21,739 nt of DNA from positions 1-21,739 of the IMG/VR virus record IMGVR_UViG_3300037070_003688. One strand, given 5' to 3'. Shown in pieces: positions 1,038 to 17,816 of the stretch; the stretch's first letter is position 1; each line of letters begins with the position of its first letter. The notes below the pieces were generated by a model. That model saw nothing but the letters and a program-made list of their open reading frames with translations. It made no database searches and was not told the origin of the DNA. The translations under genes and the position numbers were made by a program. Source of the DNA: a virus.

Positions 1038-1121
1038 TCAGTAGATCTTCACCGCGATGAGCACGGCGCAGACCGCGGTGACGACGTTGGCGATGGTGTT
1101 CACGAATGGGTGATAACTCAT
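1038..1121 (-). CDS. 27-residue membrane peptide, putative holin partner
   Basis: This very short gene encodes 27 residues, MSYHPFVNTIANVVTAVCAVLIAVKIY. Residues 7-24 form a single hydrophobic helix with a lysine at the end. It has AGAGGAG about eight bases before the ATG, and its ATG overlaps the endolysin stop (ATGA), so it is both coupled and independently initiated. The position between the endolysin and the two-span protein suggests a lysis role, as a pinholin-like, antiholin or holin-regulating peptide. Function is inferred only from location and the single span. Confidence 0.6.
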   Translation of the reverse strand: MSYHPFVNTIANVVTAVCAVLIAVKIY

Positions 1122-2629
1122 GTTGAGGACTCCTCTGGGATCGGGATGTTGGGCAGCAGCTCCGGCGGTAGCGGCGCGTGGGAGGTGCCGGTGTCGATGA
1201 GGTGCAGCGCGATGGCCGCATCAATGGGGCCGTGGCGCTCCGTCAGGCGGGCGTTGATCTGCCACCAGGAGCCGTCATGCCATTGGGACAGGAACCACAT
1301 ATCTTCAGTCTCCTCCGCGGTGTTGGGGGGCGGCCCAGGTTTGTGGACGGGCGGGCCGGGCTTGGTGCCGGGGTAGCCGGCGCGGGGCCGGGGCCGTCCG
1401 GCCTTGACCCAGGAGTCGTGCCCATCGATCTCCACCGGCTGGATATGCCACGGCTCCCCGTTGACGTTGCAGTGGACACCCCACCGCGTGGCCTCCGCTG
1501 AGCCCTGCTGGGGGCCTTCGGCGACGGTGGGGGAGCGGTGCACGCGGCCGGGGTTGCGGGCCACCAGGTCGATGGCGCAGTACCAGACGGTGCCGTCCTT
1601 GAACGTCTGGGACTGGTGGAACGACTTGCCGGGCGGGGCAAACCCCTCCTTGTCCGGCTGCACCTTGCGCCAGCCGCCACCGCACCCAATGAGGCCACCC
1701 TGGGCCTGGAGCCAGGAGAACAGCCGGCGGGCGTACTCTGGCTCCATCTTCGGCTCGTAGCGGCGTCTCATCTCCGCCATGGTCACCAGGTCGGTGCCGT
1801 AGCCCACGGGGTACAGGATCGTGCTCACGGGGGGTACCACCTCGGTCCATTGGGTCCAGGCCTGCTCGGTGGCCACGTTCAGGTCCAGGTGATGCGGGGT
1901 GGCCCAGCCGTAGTGCCCGGTGTCGCCCATCGACGAGAACTGCCACGCGTCCAGCGTGGCCACGCCGGTGGGCAACGTGGGGCCGTTGGGGAGGCCGGGG
2001 TCACCGCCCTGGGTGGTGCGCGCCCACGTCTCCCAGTTGGCCGGCTCCACCGGTGGCAGCGGCCAGGACTGCTGCGGCAGCTTGGCCGGCTGGTGCGGGT
2101 AGGCGGGCACGATGATGGCCTGGAAGGCCTCCACCAGCTCGTGCTGGCGGGGGGCGGTCATCGGGTCCAGGAACCACTTGCCGCCGTAGCCGAGCGGCGT
2201 ACGGCCGTCCTTGGCGTGGAGGCGGTCCACCAGTTCCAGCACCCAGTCCACGTAACGGTTGCCGGCCCAGTCGGCCTGCCCGTCAAAGTTCTCCATGTCC
2301 ACCATCGGCGGCAGGGTGGTGGCCTCGCACGTGTCCATCTGGGCCAGCAGGCGGTCCGCGTGGAGGAGCGCGGAACCGGTGGGTGGACGGATGTAGACAT
2401 ACGCGCCTGTCTGTAGGCCGGCGTCGGCGGCGGCGGGGATGAACAGCTGGTACGAGGGGTCCGGGCGGATGTCGTTGCAGGCCCGGCAGAACACTCCGTC
2501 AATGCCGTGCACGGCAGCCACGCGGAAGTCCGGCGCCACGGAGCCCGGTGGAATGGTCATCGCGGCGCCGTTCGCTCCGGGCACCTGGTAGAGCGACACG
2601 TCGAGAAACCCGACCGGCAGCGTGGTCAT
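1118..2629 (-). CDS. bifunctional endolysin: GH25 muramidase plus M15 peptidase
   Basis: The 503-residue protein joins two peptidoglycan-cutting domains. Residues 5-255 match the GH25 lysozyme fold: GFLDVSLYQ at the first strand (Asp10), the catalytic pair in VDMEN (Asp111 and Glu113), and HLDLN near the end of the barrel. Residues 270-408 match an M15 (VanY-type) metallopeptidase, with zinc ligands His338 in SFHQS, Asp354 in CAIDLV and His395 in EPWHIQ. The first domain should cut the glycan chain and the second the stem peptide. A proline-rich linker (411-435) leads to a C-terminal segment of about 65 residues rich in Trp, perhaps for wall binding. There is no signal peptide, so export would need a holin. 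The start at 2629 overlaps the adhesin stop (ATGA), and no ribosome-binding site is visible. A tail-borne wall-degrading role is a less likely alternative. Confidence 0.85.
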   Translation of the reverse strand: MTTLPVGFLDVSLYQVPGANGAAMTIPPGSVAPDFRVAAVHGIDGVFCRACNDIRPDPSYQLFIPAAADAGLQTGAYVYIRPPTGSALLHADRLLAQMDTCEATTLPPMVDMENFDGQADWAGNRYVDWVLELVDRLHAKDGRTPLGYGGKWFLDPMTAPRQHELVEAFQAIIVPAYPHQPAKLPQQSWPLPPVEPANWETWARTTQGGDPGLPNGPTLPTGVATLDAWQFSSMGDTGHYGWATPHHLDLNVATEQAWTQWTEVVPPVSTILYPVGYGTDLVTMAEMRRRYEPKMEPEYARRLFSWLQAQGGLIGCGGGWRKVQPDKEGFAPPGKSFHQSQTFKDGTVWYCAIDLVARNPGRVHRSPTVAEGPQQGSAEATRWGVHCNVNGEPWHIQPVEIDGHDSWVKAGRPRPRAGYPGTKPGPPVHKPGPPPNTAEETEDMWFLSQWHDGSWWQINARLTERHGPIDAAIALHLIDTGTSHAPLPPELLPNIPIPEESST

Positions 2630-5316
2630 GGCGCGTAGTACACGAGCTGAATGTTGCCGACGTACGGGTGGTAGCCGGTCTCCAGCCCGGTGCCGCTGAT
2701 CGTCACCGTGTTGTTGCCGGTGACGAGGTCGGCGACGTTGATCGGGATCGACAGGGACCGCGTTCCCACGTATGGCGGGCCGATCGTCGGCTCGAAGGGG
2801 GTCTGGCGAACAGGGCCGCCGTTGAATTGGTAGTCCAACCGCAAGGCCGACGAGTTGAGGTTCGGGTCGACCCACGACGACAGGACCAGCCGCGCTGCAG
2901 TGACCCCAGCGGCGACCGCCGGCAACGTCAGAGTCGGGGTCGGCAGGTAATAGCCGATGTCCATGCCGCTGCCGTGGGGAACTTGGGCGTCAGGGGCACG
3001 CGACACCCTGGTCGGAGTGCGGACCGCACCGTCCCAACGGACCCCGCCGTAGACGAAGTTCGTTGACGCCAGCCCGGTGTATTTGACCGACGCATGGTTG
3101 TGCGACCCGAGGTAGACGTAGCCCTCGGTGAGCGTCGGCGGCAACGTCCAGTTCGTCGCTGCCCACAGCGTGCCGTTGGCGTACACGTCGATGTGGCTGG
3201 CCGTGAACTCCAATCGAATCGTCGTCATGTTGGTCCGCGAGGTCAACGCTGCAGGGTTCGAGCTGCTCGGCGTGAGCATCGTCTCGACGAAGTTGTTTGA
3301 CACAATAAATCTCGGGACATCGGAGTCGAAGTTGAAGCGCACCGAGAACCCGTTCTTCGGTGCGTGTCCGGCGCCGTTGTAGTCGTAGTGCGACGGGATC
3401 GTGTACGGGTCCTGCGTGATGAAGATGTACGACCAGCCACGCAACGTGTTGGTCGGCGCCACGATCGTGTCGAACTCGATGATGCCGCCACCGGCGAACT
3501 CGAATAGCTCGTTGCTGCGGACGTTGGCGTCGCCGTAGTTCTGTGACCCGGCACCGATCCACAAACGGTTCGAGACGATGACGATGTCATTCGGTGGGAG
3601 CACACCGTCGACCCCGGCAATGTCATCGCAGTGATCGACATGCCCCGCATCGTTATCCCACGTGGCGTTCCGCCACCGGTTCGTCGTCCAGTGCCCCAGC
3701 CCGGCGGTGAACGACTCGGAGAACACGAACATCCCCGGCAGGTACCAGTTGCCGGATGATCCGACCGTCGAGATCGTGGCGACGGAAGACGTCCAGGTCT
3801 GCGGAACCGGCGGCCATATCCGACGTGTCCCCATGAAGGCCGTCACCACGGGCGTCGACCCGAGCCGCAGCGCCCTGACGCCAGCAACCCCGAGACGCAT
3901 ACCACCAGGGTTGACGTATGCCCACAGGCTCGACGTCCCGGTCACCGCCACAGCGGACGTCGACGGCGTCGACGTCCATGTCTGTGCTCCAGCCCTGGCC
4001 CACGTCCCCGTCGTCGCCGTCACGGTGATGCTGGCAGCAGAACGCGCCCACGTCTTCGGTCCTGGGAAGTCGCCACCGCTGGCATCCGTGATGATGCCGC
4101 CGCCATCGTGGACGCCGATCGCCTGGTTGACGCCGGTCAGCTGAGCGCCGTTGGATGCGAAGTCCTTGGTGGTGACCAAGGTGCCGTTGGCATACAGCGT
4201 CCCGATCATCGCGTTGACCCGCCACTCGATGAGGCCGCCGCCGCCCGGCACGGTCGGTGCGGCGATCTGACCGGCATACGTCCCGTCGCGGTAGAAGAAG
4301 ACGCCGTTACCCGGATTCCATTCGACGTGATAGCCGATCCGCAAGGCGGCTGTCGTCCCCGAGACGTGGGTCGCCAACACGAACGCATTGGCGAAAGAGG
4401 TCACGGTGATCTTGACGAACTGGTTGAGCGTGCCTGCCGGTGACGAGATTCGCAGGGCTTCTCCCTGACCGTGATACGGGGTCGTGCTGATCTGTCCAGG
4501 TACCGACGTGTCCCAGACCTCCGGCGTCCCCAACGATCCGTAGACGAAGAAGTTCGAGTAGTCGGGGCTCGCGTTGATGTTGGTGAAGTTGGTGTCGAAC
4601 CACGGTCCGGTACCGGCCCCCACCGACCACGCAGCTGACGTGCCGACCGCTGAGATCGTGGCCGGGGAACCGGGCCACGTCTTCGGTCCGCCAGTGATCT
4701 CCCAGCCCCCCGAAATCCCGTCGACCGCGACCGTTGCCGCCGAGCGGGTCCAGGTCTGTGGGGGCGGAGCTGACGAGTAGTCGCCACCTTCGGCGTCGGT
4801 GATGATGCCACCGCCGTCGCCGACACCGATCGACTGCTTGGTACCGGTCAGTTGGACGCCCTCGGTGGCGAAGTTCTTGGTGGCGACCAGAGTGCCGGCG
4901 ACGTACAGCGTGCCGACCATCGCGGTGACCCGCCATTCGATGACACCACCACCGGACGGCGTCGCCGGGACCGTGGCACTCCCGGCGTACGCCGTGTCGC
5001 GGTAGAACTGGATGATGTTGCCCGGCAACCAGGCGACGTGGTAGCCGAGACGATGTGCGGCCGTTGTCGCGGAGACATGGGTCGCCAACTCGAAGTTGTC
5101 GGCGAACGAGGTCACGGTGATCTTCGAGAACTGGGTGTCGGAGGATGCCGGTGACGTGATCCGCAGAGCAGCCCCGTTGCTGTGGTACGGCGTCGTCTTG
5201 ATCTGCCCAGGAGTCGACGTGTCCCACGTCTCACCACTACCGCCGTAGGCGAACCAGTTCGAGTAATCGGGACTCGAATTGATGCCGGTGAAAGCGGTGT
5301 CGGACCAGGTGGGCAC
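2626..5316 (-). CDS. large receptor-binding/adhesin-like tail protein with duplicated domains
   Basis: The 896-residue protein is built from beta-sandwich-like modules. Residues 4-180 and 239-416 are two copies of one laminin-G-like domain, both starting with a W-x-DT-x-FT-x-IN-x-SPDYSN pattern and ending GDGGGIITDA or HDGGGIITDA. Five short units of about 24 residues with the pattern TWxxSxATIxxVGxSGxW separate them (near 187, 211, 420, 444 and 505). Residues 473-502 carry a LGVAGVRALRLGS...WP strap like those between domains of actinophage tail proteins. A third lectin-like domain spans about 530-756, and 757-896 looks like a C-terminal jelly-roll. It probably binds the host surface at the tail tip. 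It starts at a GTG without a clear ribosome-binding site, 17 bases after the preceding stop. The specific ligand cannot be told. Confidence 0.75.
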   Translation of the reverse strand: MPTWSDTAFTGINSSPDYSNWFAYGGSGETWDTSTPGQIKTTPYHSNGAALRITSPASSDTQFSKITVTSFADNFELATHVSATTAAHRLGYHVAWLPGNIIQFYRDTAYAGSATVPATPSGGGVIEWRVTAMVGTLYVAGTLVATKNFATEGVQLTGTKQSIGVGDGGGIITDAEGGDYSSAPPPQTWTRSAATVAVDGISGGWEITGGPKTWPGSPATISAVGTSAAWSVGAGTGPWFDTNFTNINASPDYSNFFVYGSLGTPEVWDTSVPGQISTTPYHGQGEALRISSPAGTLNQFVKITVTSFANAFVLATHVSGTTAALRIGYHVEWNPGNGVFFYRDGTYAGQIAAPTVPGGGGLIEWRVNAMIGTLYANGTLVTTKDFASNGAQLTGVNQAIGVHDGGGIITDASGGDFPGPKTWARSAASITVTATTGTWARAGAQTWTSTPSTSAVAVTGTSSLWAYVNPGGMRLGVAGVRALRLGSTPVVTAFMGTRRIWPPVPQTWTSSVATISTVGSSGNWYLPGMFVFSESFTAGLGHWTTNRWRNATWDNDAGHVDHCDDIAGVDGVLPPNDIVIVSNRLWIGAGSQNYGDANVRSNELFEFAGGGIIEFDTIVAPTNTLRGWSYIFITQDPYTIPSHYDYNGAGHAPKNGFSVRFNFDSDVPRFIVSNNFVETMLTPSSSNPAALTSRTNMTTIRLEFTASHIDVYANGTLWAATNWTLPPTLTEGYVYLGSHNHASVKYTGLASTNFVYGGVRWDGAVRTPTRVSRAPDAQVPHGSGMDIGYYLPTPTLTLPAVAAGVTAARLVLSSWVDPNLNSSALRLDYQFNGGPVRQTPFEPTIGPPYVGTRSLSIPINVADLVTGNNTVTISGTGLETGYHPYVGNIQLVYYAP
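4069..4602 (-). repeat. second copy of duplicated lectin-like domain
   Basis: This codes for residues 239-416 of the adhesin-like protein and aligns along its length with the copy at 4777-5307. Matching landmarks are SPDYSN, TTPYH, KITVTSFA, LATHVS, GYHV, FYRD, IEWRV, GTLY and DGGGIITDA. The two are clearly diverged rather than recent identical copies. Confidence 0.8.
4777..5307 (-). repeat. first copy of duplicated lectin-like domain
   Basis: This codes for residues 4-180 of the adhesin-like protein, sharing the ordered motifs of the copy at 4069-4602. The spacer between the copies holds two of the short TWxxSxATI units. Confidence 0.8.
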
Positions 5317-14200: not shown

Positions 14201-14241
14201 GCGCCTTCAACCTTGATATGGGCAGAGATCTCGTCAGCCAC
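11212..14241 (-). CDS. tape measure protein
   Basis: The 1009-residue protein is the longest product of the window, lies between tail tube and tail-tip genes, and sets tail length. Residues 31-180 are five tandem 30-residue repeats, each beginning [LVI]DG and holding a V-x-V-x-[AV]D strand and a helix. Residues 192-222 are hydrophobic and Gly/Ala rich, a likely membrane-inserting segment. Long helical stretches follow to about 760. Residues 770-860 carry repeats of DAAxAYADGLxGTET. The C-terminus has AHGGKVPPGPPG and RLPDGTEMLL, a tail-end pattern common in tape measures. At roughly 1.5 angstrom per residue the tail would be about 150 nm. The GTG start at 14241 overlaps the gp10-like gene by eight bases. 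Confidence 0.9.
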   Translation of the reverse strand: MADEISAHIKVEGADAAVADLQAVAEAAQKLDGQSTSVAVSADTAAADASLEGVTGEVTALDGTTAAVGVTADAGAATESLGAVSDEVETLDGATAEVEATADASGAIDALETVSSEVEAVDGATAEAVVDVDTEDAIVALQDVGEELENIDGQSVEAEVTVDTSGASEAMEGLGEEIGAAGESGFGRFTSAATAAFAAIKSGGAGALLGIGAGITAFATKAVTDYQDLALGAGELRDALGLTAEEASRLQEVAGDLGIGVGPLEAALSRMNTTAGQSPGKFDAIGASIARSKDGTTDVLGTFLNVIDVLHRIPDATDRADAGRKVFGKGWTNLAELVDLGTQGILANMRSVESQKVTSDEQIDDAREFRDTMDELKGVLESVSLEIASSVLPMLERIAETVLLVKDRVGDLDKQIPQSAKDAGFSFSHLFDGFPDIADQFMKNRQVVRVSLGLEDLPTATSGIDSFVGTLEERLDAADTVTEASIQKQKDWVAALEASPDSAGRDAMLAGAKARLEEMNGELAKTPAVAAAAEAALQKQAEAAKQMGIDVKGATGELRDLGSTFSLMGIDQDALSDVFDIGNAPEVLAGQVRDISLAIGDLSEDLKGIKVEDVLSGDVKADKFLDAIDAIRPQIQTKVTEAFSTDGSEAATAMANSYIDQVTAELGNKFTREQVAQMLGLENIQATITAAVELSSVEKARRQLDILTGLNGETPYTASIKMALDAGTITGEQAQTLIQNQLGHEGVKVPASLEVPQTADAIAEANAALQGSPAVMPIDGDPAEALAAADAAQAYADGLIGTETYGGEWQQAQDAADAAKAYADGLVGTETVGADASTATTAADDAKSHADGLDAAIGVGADMTQFNAAMVEALKPRRVQVIGSLTFEGNRAHGGKVPPGPPGIAGEAGAEFIRLPDGTEMLLSQRTMVPAGTQVTSAARTRSIIRARRRGPARFANGTGAGSLTVNTAAAALPPIVVNLNGRPIAALIGTTTAAAVRAAAMTIRAGRA
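13702..14151 (-). repeat. five 90-base tandem repeats in tape measure gene
   Basis: These code for residues 31-180, five exact-length 30-residue units starting LDGQS, LDGTT, LDGAT, VDGAT and IDGQS. Each unit ends in a short acidic helix. A sixth, incomplete unit precedes them (IKVEGADAAVADLQAV). Confidence 0.85.
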
Positions 14242-14680
14242 TGAGCGCCTTCTTTACCTGGGTGGTGACGATGTCGGGGTATTCCCTGCGGAAGGTGTCC
14301 ACCGTCTGGGTCCAGGTCCGCTTCCCGCGTGCACCGGGGTGCCGGATGGGACCGCGCACGGGGTGGCCGTAGCCGGCCCCCTTCAGGAACGTGGTCCGAC
14401 GCCCGACCCTGTGAGGCTTGGTGCCCTCCTCCAGCCAGGTCCACTGAGCCCGCGGGGTGCCCTCAATGAACACCACCGAGTTGCCCATGGTGGCCTTGGT
14501 GCCCATCGTGACCGAGCGCCGGCGGCCACCCCGGCCGTGGAGCATCCAGACGCCACCGCCACCAACGGCGCGCCCCACGGACGCCTTGGCGATGTCCTCG
14601 AATCGGTCAGCGGCCTCCTGGATGATCTGGCGTTCCACCCCGGACAGCCGCGCCGCAGCGGCGGTGAATGGCTCGCTCAC
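14234..14680 (-). CDS. HK97 gp10-like neck protein
   Basis: The 148-residue basic protein begins at a GTG that overlaps the major tail protein stop (GTGA). It has a helical start (MSEPFTAAAARLSGVERQII), a WTWLEEGTKPHRVG segment and a GPIRHPGARGKRTW segment. The W-L-x-x-G-T-x-P-H and H-P-G-x-x-G-K pair is typical of HK97 gp10-like and actinophage neck proteins, which join the head connector to the tail. The family usually lies before the major tail gene; here it follows it. The start at 14680 is chosen because earlier in-frame starts lie inside the tail protein. Confidence 0.75.
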   Translation of the reverse strand: MSEPFTAAAARLSGVERQIIQEAADRFEDIAKASVGRAVGGGGVWMLHGRGGRRRSVTMGTKATMGNSVVFIEGTPRAQWTWLEEGTKPHRVGRRTTFLKGAGYGHPVRGPIRHPGARGKRTWTQTVDTFRREYPDIVTTQVKKALSG

Positions 14681-15426
14681 GCATGGGCACCAGCGGCCCA
14701 CGCCGTCCCGGACCAGTTGAACCCGTACGTCCCAACGGTGATCTTCTGACCGGTCGTCCATGCCGTCGCGGGGACCGCGACGTAGCCCAGACCGGCCAGC
14801 TTGGCGGCGTTCGTGGAGTCGCTGGCGGTGACGGTGGGCTCCGCCGGGAACACGTCCCCAGGCTTGGCGGCACCCTTCACGGCGTCGCCACCGACGATGA
14901 TCACGGACGTCGTGGCGTCACCGAACTCGATATCCGGCTTACGCGAGCACGGCAGGGTGATATCCGCCGTGAGCGTGGTGCGGGCCTCGCCGCCAATGGT
15001 GGCGGATGAAAGCCGGACACGGCCGATGGCCATCGGCGGGTTAGCGCCATTCAGGCCCAGCATGAAATAGCTTTCCTCGGTGTCATGTTCAAAGAGGAAG
15101 CGGTTAAGGCCCGTCGAAACGTTCGGATCTTGCAGGAATGTGACCGACAACTCGTAAGTCGACTTAGCGGGGGTGGGAATAGTCTCCCCTGGCTCGCAGA
15201 ATGTGGCAGGCACATCGGAGGTACTTGTATCTGCGGTGGCATTCAAGGCGCCGGCAGTTGTCTGACAGCTCCACGATTGCGAACCGGCGTTGTAATCGGA
15301 GAGCGCCACGTTCAACAGTGTCTTCCCTCCGGGCGCTTGCCAGCCGCTCTGGAAACCAACGGCCGCCGTGTCCACGACAGCGAATGCGAGTTGCCCGCTT
15401 TCGATCTGGAAGATATTACGGGACAT
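14677..15426 (-). CDS. major tail (tube) protein with C-terminal add-on module
   Basis: The 249-residue protein starts with GAGGAG six bases upstream and lies where siphophages carry the tail tube gene. Residues 1-175 are the presumed tube domain (GKTLLNVALSDYNAG, TYELSVTFLQDPN, RTTLTADITLP). Residues 198-249 are an added module ending NWSGTAWAAGAHA. In an ungapped alignment it matches 39 of 52 residues of the C-terminus of the capsid-adjacent protein at 16309-16617. Such modules would stud the outside of the tail. The first two thirds of the gene use A- and T-ending codons much more than neighbours, while the module does not, so the gene looks like a mosaic. The neck protein gene follows with a GTGA overlap. 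Confidence 0.8.
   Translation of the reverse strand: MSRNIFQIESGQLAFAVVDTAAVGFQSGWQAPGGKTLLNVALSDYNAGSQSWSCQTTAGALNATADTSTSDVPATFCEPGETIPTPAKSTYELSVTFLQDPNVSTGLNRFLFEHDTEESYFMLGLNGANPPMAIGRVRLSSATIGGEARTTLTADITLPCSRKPDIEFGDATTSVIIVGGDAVKGAAKPGDVFPAEPTVTASDSTNAAKLAGLGYVAVPATAWTTGQKITVGTYGFNWSGTAWAAGAHA
14680..14835 (-). repeat. module copy at end of major tail protein
   Basis: This codes for residues 198-249 of the major tail protein and pairs with 16312-16467. Both end in the identical 13 residues NWSGTAWAAGAHA. Confidence 0.85.
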
Positions 15427-15436
15427 TGTGAACTCC

Positions 15437-15841
15437 TCAGCAGGTGACGGTGTCTGTCGTAACGGTGGCGATATAGGCGGGATATTCCTGGCCGGCCACC
15501 AGGACGGTGCCAGGCAGGAACAAGGTGCAGCGGTAGAAGGCGTCACCCACGCGGACGTTCTTGGTGCCGCCGAGCACGGCAAACAGCTGGTCTGCCAGCG
15601 CGTCCAGCTCACGCTGGGAGTCCTCGTCGTTGATGCGTCGGCCCATCAGCGTCACATCCAGTTCCACGCCCATCACCCCTGACGTGAACGTCTCACGGAG
15701 TGATGGACGCCCGATGACGTGGCACGGAAGGTGGGCCACGTCATCGGGGAGGTACGAGTAGGTGGCCAGGCCCGTTGACGCGACGAGCCCGGCGACCTGC
15801 TCCCGTGCGGTGGTGATAACTGGGGTGATCGTGATTATCAC
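15437..15841 (-). CDS. tail terminator-like protein
   Basis: The 134-residue protein is read from a GTG at 15841 that overlaps the preceding stop (GTGA), giving MIITITPVITTAREQVAGL. The pattern of a helix, a strand with PDDVAHLPCHVIGRP, a long strand region (GVELDVTLMGRR), a helix (SQRELDALADQLFAVL) and two further strands fits phage tail terminator proteins. These cap the tube and join it to the head. Gene order between the connector and the tail tube supports this. A head-tail stopper is the alternative, since no separate stopper gene is present. Confidence 0.65.
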   Translation of the reverse strand: MIITITPVITTAREQVAGLVASTGLATYSYLPDDVAHLPCHVIGRPSLRETFTSGVMGVELDVTLMGRRINDEDSQRELDALADQLFAVLGGTKNVRVGDAFYRCTLFLPGTVLVAGQEYPAYIATVTTDTVTC

Positions 15842-16152
15842 GCCACACCGGCCTTGAGCATGTCCCACTTGTGACCAAGCAGTAGCTCGATATCTGGGTC
15901 GCGGGAGATGATGCGGATGACGCCCAGCTCCCCGAACCCCGCCACGCCCTCCGGGGACTGGCGGCGCTTGTAGAGGCGCGAGGCCATCAGGACGATGGCC
16001 TCCTGGACTTCTGGGTCATCGAACCGGCAGTCCATGACGTGATCACGGACCCAGAACGTGGCGGCGTCCAGGGACCGCTGCAGCACCGTGGTACTGGCAG
16101 CGGTCACCGTCCCGATGGATGCCCGCAGCGCGTCAAGGTCCGCCGTGGCCAT
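15838..16152 (-). CDS. head-tail connector/adaptor (gp6/gp15-like)
   Basis: The 104-residue protein is mostly helical and contains MASRLYKRRQSPEGVAGFG followed by a short strand and DPDIELLLGHKW. The R-L-x-R-R-x-S-P-E-G-x-x-G-F-G stretch is characteristic of actinophage head-tail adaptors, which form a ring under the portal. It is the right size and lies between the capsid and tail genes. Its ATG overlaps the stop of the 47-residue gene (TGATG), and its own stop overlaps the next start. Confidence 0.8.
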   Translation of the reverse strand: MATADLDALRASIGTVTAASTTVLQRSLDAATFWVRDHVMDCRFDDPEVQEAIVLMASRLYKRRQSPEGVAGFGELGVIRIISRDPDIELLLGHKWDMLKAGVA

Positions 16153-16295
16153 CAGCTGAGGTACCCCTCGGCGCGCTTGATGCGAGCCTCCTGGTCGTCA
16201 GCCACCTTCGGCTGCTCGGCGGTGCCGCCGGATGACGGAGGAGCGGGCGTCTCCACATCATCCGGCGGCTGGTCGTCAGTGTGTCGCGTGGCCAT
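16152..16295 (-). CDS. 47-residue acidic, disordered protein
   Basis: This encodes 47 residues beginning MATRHTDDQPPDDVETPAPP. It is rich in Asp, Pro and Glu and ends in a short basic helix (EARIKRAEGYLS). A GGGAGG site lies eight bases before the ATG, and the stop overlaps the connector start (TGATG). Small acidic proteins between capsid and connector are common in HK97-like modules; some act as head-assembly or decoration factors. I do not recognise this one, and the composition suggests it is unfolded alone. Confidence 0.65.
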   Translation of the reverse strand: MATRHTDDQPPDDVETPAPPSSGGTAEQPKVADDQEARIKRAEGYLS

Positions 16296-16308
16296 AATCT
16301 GCCTCCCG

Positions 16309-16617
16309 TTAGGCGTGGGCGCCGGCAGCCCAGGCGGTGCCGGACCAGTTGAACTGGAATCCGTTAACGGTGATCTTCTGGCCGGTGGTCCACGCCGTGG
16401 TGGGGTCGGCCACGAAGCCGAGCGGTCCGAGCCTGGCGGCGTTCGGCGCGTCGGACGCGGTGATCGTCGGATATCCGGTGAACGTGTCGTTATTGGTCGC
16501 CGCGTCGTACTGCGCGCCCGGCGGGTTGACGCCGGCGTCGGTCATGGAGACGCCTGGCCCGGAGCGGTCTGCCCGCACCAGTGACTGGTTGGGCCAGGAA
16601 TACTGCAGGCCGGGCAT
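16309..16617 (-). CDS. capsid-adjacent decoration-like protein
   Basis: The 102-residue protein starts one base after sharing the A of the capsid stop (TGATG). Residues 1-45 are unrelated to anything I recognise. Residues 51-102 form a module with TTAWTTGQKITVNG and FNWSGTAWAAGAHA, repeated at the end of the major tail protein. The pattern of aromatic, Gly and Trp residues is reminiscent of small beta modules that bind sugars (CBM5/12-like) or decorate capsids, which is an inference. Position directly behind the capsid gene favours a head decoration protein. Confidence 0.7.
   Translation of the reverse strand: MPGLQYSWPNQSLVRADRSGPGVSMTDAGVNPPGAQYDAATNNDTFTGYPTITASDAPNAARLGPLGFVADPTTAWTTGQKITVNGFQFNWSGTAWAAGAHA
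16312..16467 (-). repeat. module copy shared with major tail protein
   Basis: This codes for residues 51-102 of the capsid-adjacent protein. The matching copy is at 14680-14835. By hand, 39 of 52 residues are identical without gaps, and stretches of DNA such as GGACCAGTTGAAC and ACGGTGATCTTCTG are also shared. Confidence 0.85.
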
Positions 16618-17816
16618 CAGGCGGTCAGCTTGATAACGGCGGTGGGCACCAGCACGGACACCTGGAAGTAGCCGGCGTAGGCCACTTGGACACCGAGCAC
16701 GGACGGCTCCGTCACCTGCAGCGCCCCGATGCGCTGCTCGTACACGCGGGCGGCGGAGCTGTTGAGGAGCAGGATGGTGCCGGCGGCCAGCCCGTAGGAC
16801 ATGTAGACCGTCACGCCGGAGATGGAGCCCATGGCCCCACCGGTGAGCGAACCGGCGCTAAAGCCCGTGCTGTTGCCGTTGGTGACGCCCACGGACGGGA
16901 ACAGCGCCCCGACCACGCCCATCATGTCCGGGGACACAACGAGCAGGAACCGGCCCTCACCAGGCGTGGCGGCGTAGGCGGTGCCCACGGCCTTCCAGAC
17001 GGCGGTGTTCACATCAGCCGCCGTGGATGACGTGGTCAGCACCGGAGTCTGGGCGGTGCTATTGGCCTTAAGCGCGACAGCCGTAGCCGTCTCGGTATCA
17101 ATGGCATATTGCCCAGCCAGATCGTTGAGGACGATATCCATGATCTGCGGCACAGACCAATCCAGGTTCTGGCGAGACAAGTTCAAATATCCGCCATATG
17201 TGTCCATGGACACGCTCACGGAATCAATGAGCATCTTGCGGCTGACCAGCTCCGACTTCTCCGCCGTTTGCTTCGCGGTGTCGGTGTGCTGGGTGATGCG
17301 CGGAATGCTGAACCGGCCACCAGGCATGGCCATGACACCGAGCGCGTTCACGATCGGCCGCGACGTGTCGATGAAGTTGAGCAGCGGCCCCACGACGGGG
17401 GCCGGGATGATTCCCAGGTTGTCGGCGGTGGTCTGGTGGGCGGCGGCGCGGTGGTAGATGCTCAGGCGCTCCTTGGCTTCCTCCACGCCCACGCCGGCCT
17501 GCCAGCGGTCCACGACGTACTGGCCGGCGGAGCGGTACTCCACCGATTGGGAGGCCTGGGGGGTGCGCTGGGTGGCCAGGTCGGAAGCGATCTCCTCGAT
17601 ACGGAGACGTGACTGCTGGGACACCTTGGCGGCGGCCTGCAGCGGCGTCAGAAGCCCGTTGAGGACGGTCATCCGGTCGCTGGTCTTCTGCACCAGCTCC
17701 GTTTCCTGGGTGGAGAGATCGCGCCCGCTGGACTGCTCCAGGAGGGAATCCAGGAACGCCTGGCGCGTCTCCAGCTCGTTGGTGTATTCGGCAATGAGGG
17801 TGTCGGTGGACCCCAT
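16617..17816 (-). CDS. major capsid protein, HK97 fold
   Basis: The 399-residue protein starts at 17816, where AAGGAG lies six bases upstream. A longer in-frame reading from 17870 lacks such a site. Residues 1-90 are helical and charged (IAEYTNELETRQAFLDSLLE, LRIEEIASDLATQ), as expected of the delta scaffold segment that the prohead protease removes. The shell part follows: a VEYRSAGQYVVDRW N-arm, then RPIVNALGVMAMPGGRFSIP, NLSRQNLDWSVPQIMDIVLND and a C-terminal GALQVTEPSVLGVQVAYAGY stretch typical of HK97 major capsids. Upstream lies a 129-base gap with two hairpins, and downstream the decoration-like gene is coupled by TGATG. The cleavage site is not certain from sequence. Confidence 0.9.
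   Translation of the reverse strand: MGSTDTLIAEYTNELETRQAFLDSLLEQSSGRDLSTQETELVQKTSDRMTVLNGLLTPLQAAAKVSQQSRLRIEEIASDLATQRTPQASQSVEYRSAGQYVVDRWQAGVGVEEAKERLSIYHRAAAHQTTADNLGIIPAPVVGPLLNFIDTSRPIVNALGVMAMPGGRFSIPRITQHTDTAKQTAEKSELVSRKMLIDSVSVSMDTYGGYLNLSRQNLDWSVPQIMDIVLNDLAGQYAIDTETATAVALKANSTAQTPVLTTSSTAADVNTAVWKAVGTAYAATPGEGRFLLVVSPDMMGVVGALFPSVGVTNGNSTGFSAGSLTGGAMGSISGVTVYMSYGLAAGTILLLNSSAARVYEQRIGALQVTEPSVLGVQVAYAGYFQVSVLVPTAVIKLTA

Follow-up and report, generated by a model that had tools for sequence, protein, structure and literature searches.

A shared C-terminal module on the tail tube protein and a capsid-adjacent protein of a probable actinobacteriophage, with a putative capsid-docking peptide

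In many tailed phages, Ig-like domains are interchangeable parts that occur on capsid, decoration, tail-tube and sheath proteins alike (Fraser et al. 2006, as cited in PMC9230969; reviewed in PMC7602432). In the mycobacteriophage Douge, Ig-like domains on the capsid and the tube bind mycobacterial surface glycans (PMC13033339). Capsid binding by a small unstructured protein is exemplified by gp4 of phages Patience and Adjutor, which is a random coil when free and binds to the capsid hexamer (PMC10635136).

The window analyzed here, a complete IMG/VR record, spans 21,739 bases and has a G+C content of 67%. Its minus strand carries a head-tail gene block. The host of the phage is probably an actinobacterium. 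The major capsid gene (16617..17816, minus strand; phrog_2263, 4e-59; the ATG at 17816 was chosen as its start) is directly followed by the gene of a 102-residue protein, P0001 (16309..16617, minus strand), whose ATG overlaps the capsid stop codon by one base (TGATG). The major tail (tube) protein, P0002 (249 residues; 14677..15426, minus strand), matches phrog_4574 (3.8e-7), and its body resembles the lambda tube protein gpV (Foldseek 7t2e, E 1.8e-4). Both neighborhoods are as the first-pass annotation of this DNA had described them. The P0001 reading frame is a real gene, with full-length homologs at the same genomic position in two related contigs, L026 and L027. A frameshift fusing the capsid protein to P0001 was considered, as the reading frame of P0001 extends upstream without a stop. 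By eye, however, there is no obvious slippery site, and the capsid stop in L026 precedes a separate start.

Several other genes of the window deserve mention. An unlisted reading frame for an acidic 47-residue protein (16152-16295, minus strand), preceded by a good ribosome-binding site (GGGAGG), lies downstream of P0001 and ahead of the adaptor gene, whose start its stop overlaps. Short reading frames resembling it (DQE-RI-RAE motif) follow the P0001 homologs in L026 and L027. A Neck1/tail-completion-like gene (14234-14680, minus strand; phrog_5, 2.6e-4) overlaps the major tail protein gene on one side and the tape measure gene on the other; this region shows no evident pair of tail assembly chaperone genes, and the gene order is the same in L027. 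An 896-residue tail-region protein (2626-5316, minus strand) has no Pfam match and is internally repetitive, with two or more long repeats. The product of the gene at 1118-2875 (minus strand) is probably an endolysin and contains a domain of glycosyl hydrolase family 25 (PF01183, 3.5e-12).

P0001 and P0002 end in the same module. Residues 51-102 of P0001 (16312-16467) and 198-249 of P0002 (14680-14835) align without gaps at 39 of 52 identical positions, as had been claimed, and the identical run at their C-termini is 14 residues long (FNWSGTAWAAGAHA), one more than the 13 originally stated. The similarity is also visible in the DNA, where 114 of 156 bases agree (73%). Identity is lowest at third codon positions (43/52, 42/52 and 29/52 for positions 1, 2 and 3), as expected for a conserved protein. 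No third copy of the module was found in the record.

Beyond this 52-residue core, the module comprises residues 39-102 of P0001 (16312..16503, minus strand) and 186-249 of P0002 (14680..14871, minus strand). In P0001 it is preceded by an N-terminal peptide of 22 residues (MPGLQYSWPNQSLVRADRSGPG; 16552..16617, minus strand), predicted to be disordered on its own, and by a linker (residues 23-38; 16504..16551, minus strand) in which pLDDT stays low as far as about residue 35. In P0002 a linker of approximately residues 168-185 (14872..14925, minus strand; pLDDT below 50 at 168-181) separates the tube domain from the module. AlphaFold2 models, computed from alignments of window and contig sequences, place a helix followed by a three-stranded sheet at equivalent positions in both modules (helix 57-66 and strands 82-84, 87-91 and 96-98 in P0001; helix 204-212 and strands 229-231, 234-238 and 243-245 in P0002), so that structure prediction returns one fold for the two segments rather than different ones. 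The P0002 module is predicted with a pLDDT of about 88-93. The P0001 model is of moderate confidence, with a mean pLDDT of 64, about 76-84 in the module and below 50 in the first 29 residues. The best-conserved residues of the module are N59, A60, L63, G67, W76, W91 and W96 (P0001 numbering).

The module matches no carbohydrate-binding or Ig family that we searched for. P0001 belongs to no family in Pfam, NCBIfam or PHROGs, and neither solved nor viral predicted structures match the module at E 0.001 or better. Its Trp/Gly pattern had been read as a sign of carbohydrate binding, a reading by analogy with Douge that gains no profile or fold support, as Pfam, PDB-sequence and Foldseek searches gave no match to a carbohydrate-binding module family. 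In Pfam searches of 25 module sequences, the only Ig-type profile to appear was Big_7, at E 0.13 in one member, and both models have a helix with three short strands in place of the two sheets of a beta-sandwich. We rejected membership of the module in carbohydrate-binding or Ig families after finding no match via Pfam, NCBIfam, PHROGs, PDB sequences or Foldseek. A weak match to phrog_117 (major tail protein; 1.9e-4) was seen for 6 of the 25 sequences. We found no earlier account of the module in the open-access literature.

The module is nevertheless widespread. We found it in 66 further distinct viral contigs and assigned its carriers by hand from their neighbors and their similarity to labeled proteins, with the proviso that one contig may count twice. 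The carriers are 31 major tail proteins, 17 small proteins encoded between terminase and portal in podovirus-like contigs, 11 small post-capsid proteins, seven tail sheaths with an inserted module (matching Pfam and PHROG sheath models), four small proteins behind a tail protein, one capsid fusion (L049, a phi29-like capsid protein; PF25622, 3.4e-93) and two proteins without a class. Some tail proteins contain tandem copies. Among annotated phages, major tail proteins from Microbacterium phages end in the module, and a divergent form, which we call type B, occurs on major tail proteins of Streptomyces R4-type phages. Profile comparison relates type B to the type A form (97.5% probability, E 5.2e-12), and the two stand in tandem in some tail proteins. 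A pattern scan of genome contigs confirmed no cellular or prophage copies. In some sheath proteins (L025 4203-6596 and L080-L083) the module is split by another inserted, repeat-like domain, which by eye resembles a segment of Dewdrop gp63. A type-B module protein (L106 3753-4088) shows a sub-threshold match to DUF2510 (PF10708, 3.9e-4) near its YWDGTAW end.

The N-terminal peptide of P0001 has a distribution of its own. Alignment with the L026 and L027 homologs reveals a conserved start, WPNQ-x-x-VR-x-D-x-SGPG (PNQQVVRxDxSGP-like), and both contigs encode a second small post-capsid protein (L026 3051-3380; L027 2086-2412) in which the same peptide is followed by a PKD domain (8.1e-6). We collected contigs with related capsid genes and read the reading frame at the capsid stop, a survey that covered 90 loci with 83 distinct proteins. 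Of the 90 loci, 83 encode the core motif PN[QRK]x(1-2)[VL], compared with 26 of 5,519 control reading frames from the same loci (0.5%). In 76/90 the start codon is at positions -3 to 0 relative to the capsid stop, a figure favored by our choice of starts close to the stop, which does not affect the motif count. As for a decoration protein, the gene thus lies beside the capsid gene and is conserved with the capsid type. No solved structure of this capsid family was found in the PDB.

The part of the protein behind the peptide is swapped. It is a type-A module in the window, L026 and L101/L027, a type-B module in L103, L106, L118 and L176, and in other loci a SAP/HeH-like, AT-hook-like or otherwise charged tail, classes assigned by simple motifs with weak Pfam support for Rho_N. 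The longer C-terminal part in L105 was tried as a LamG-like lectin, but Pfam gives no match and the label was a guess. The peptide most likely serves as a capsid-docking tag, with the major capsid protein as its proposed partner.

How the two copies in the window came to resemble one another can be judged from their relatives. Chance or compositional likeness of two Gly/Ala/Trp-rich ends, which the high G+C content might promote, is refuted and retains a negligible probability: composition-adjusted blastp lengthens the match to 44/64 residues (E 2e-26), the local score of 232 lies far beyond those of 2000 shuffles (mean 35.7, SD 5.9, maximum 67), and the two segments share a predicted fold and belong to a large family. 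Recent events within this genome, either duplication or gene conversion, would account for the 39/52 identity and the 14 identical last residues, and the AU test on a weakly resolved tree (56 columns) does not reject the copies as sisters (p 0.129). Each copy is, however, nearer to copies in other phages. The head-copy module is closest to that of L008 (86% identity) and the tail-copy module to those of L056 and others (88%), and the partner in the window ranks 19th and 25th of 48 for the two copies; such ranks are evidence rather than proof. The identical end is the family consensus, dS between the window copies is 0.97, compared with 0.58 and 0.81 for P0001 and its orthologs in L027 and L026 (dN approximately 0.23), and L027 combines a type-A head copy with a type-B tail copy. 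Recent copying within this genome is not supported, and we regard it as very unlikely. Of the earlier suggestion that one surface module was copied onto head and tail, the recurring design survives, given its presence on tube, sheath, phi29-like capsid and capsid-adjacent proteins, whereas the copying within the genome is disfavored, as closer relatives lie elsewhere. Decoration of the whole virion, also suggested there, agrees with head-and-tail decoration as a recurring theme among relatives, in which the module is carried by tube, sheath and capsid proteins. At loci where both genes are readable, the module is on head and tail in three, on the tail only in two, on the head only in two and on neither in seven. 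The small protein of L106 and L107 is one and the same. L062 and L073 have the head copy and a tail protein without the module. Homotypic joining of head to tail through the module is disfavored, since in some phages only the head or only the tail bears it.

What the module and P0001 do on the particle allows further readings. The module may be a structural part that oligomerizes or braces neighboring subunits on tube, sheath or capsid and stabilizes the particle. Its best-conserved residues may form the core, no binding family was found for it, and many decoration proteins stabilize capsids (PMC7602432). Its C-terminal placement behind a flexible linker, its tandem repeats and its absence from either protein in some close relatives fit an optional appendage better, and we consider bracing rather unlikely. 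P0001 could instead occupy the capsid interior or the neck, or act as an assembly factor, leaving only its tail-tube relative on the surface. The Rho_N/SAP-like, AT-hook-like or charged tails behind the same peptide would suit contact with DNA and could mean an inner, DNA-facing position, which counts against the reading favored below, as do the module's lack of a carbohydrate-binding, Ig or fold match and the moderate confidence of the P0001 model. In other relatives the peptide is followed by a type-A module, a type-B module or a PKD domain, and elsewhere the module is fused to surface-type proteins (tube, sheath and a phi29-like capsid protein). An inner, neck or assembly role for P0001 is, in our judgment, unlikely.

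As the module occurs on proteins of the tail exterior and on one capsid protein, and the peptide tracks the capsid type, a docking peptide with an exchangeable domain is the simplest reading. We therefore favor, with some reservation, a swappable actinophage virion-surface module of about 60 residues, attached to the tube via a linker and to the head via the capsid-docking peptide of P0001. Phages of actinobacteria would swap this module between abundant structural proteins. On the tail, each tube subunit (P0002) would bear one module at its C-terminal end, held by the flexible linker. At about 1.5 Å of tail per tape measure residue and six tube subunits per 4-nm ring, the 1,009-residue tape measure suggests roughly 200 modules on the tail. 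P0001 would be produced at the capsid gene through translation across the stop-start overlap and would display its module through the conserved N-terminal peptide docked on the capsid. With P0001 coupled to the capsid gene and a module on the tail tube, head and tail would carry the same domain. On the head the module would presumably face outward, and its role, by analogy with Douge, may be weak multivalent contact with the host envelope. More tentatively, this non-Ig module, absent from Pfam and NCBIfam, could serve actinophage virions in general as a surface domain on tube, sheath and capsid, with the short peptide of the proteins behind this capsid type as a general docking tag for interchangeable domains.

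Among isolates, phages of Dismasvirus, Rogerhendrixvirus and the Streptomyces R4 type have major tail proteins that end, like P0002, in the module or in its divergent form. In the searched records these isolates have one place for the module each, none of them listed as capsid-adjacent, whereas the window phage has two. T4 Hoc and T5 pb10 combine a capsid-binding part with a displayed domain thought to aid host adhesion (PMC7602432), as proposed here for P0001. No sequence relation to either was detected, and the putative docking part of P0001 is a peptide of only about 20 residues. By analogy, the Patience and Adjutor gp4 may be compared with this peptide as a small unstructured capsid binder; a displayed domain, as in P0001, does not figure in the part of PMC10635136 that describes it. 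If the proposed role is correct, it would name a docking peptide for a widespread capsid type.

In Douge, related domain types cover head and tail, as the module would here. The Douge domains have an Ig fold and the head copy lies within the capsid protein itself, in contrast to the head copy of the window phage, which is on a separate small protein. Like the Ig-like domains of phages, the module is a small domain exchanged among capsid, decoration, tube and sheath proteins. It differs from them in matching no Ig profile and in its predicted helix followed by three short strands, which raises the possibility that the spread of one exchangeable domain over head and tail is not restricted to Ig-like folds.
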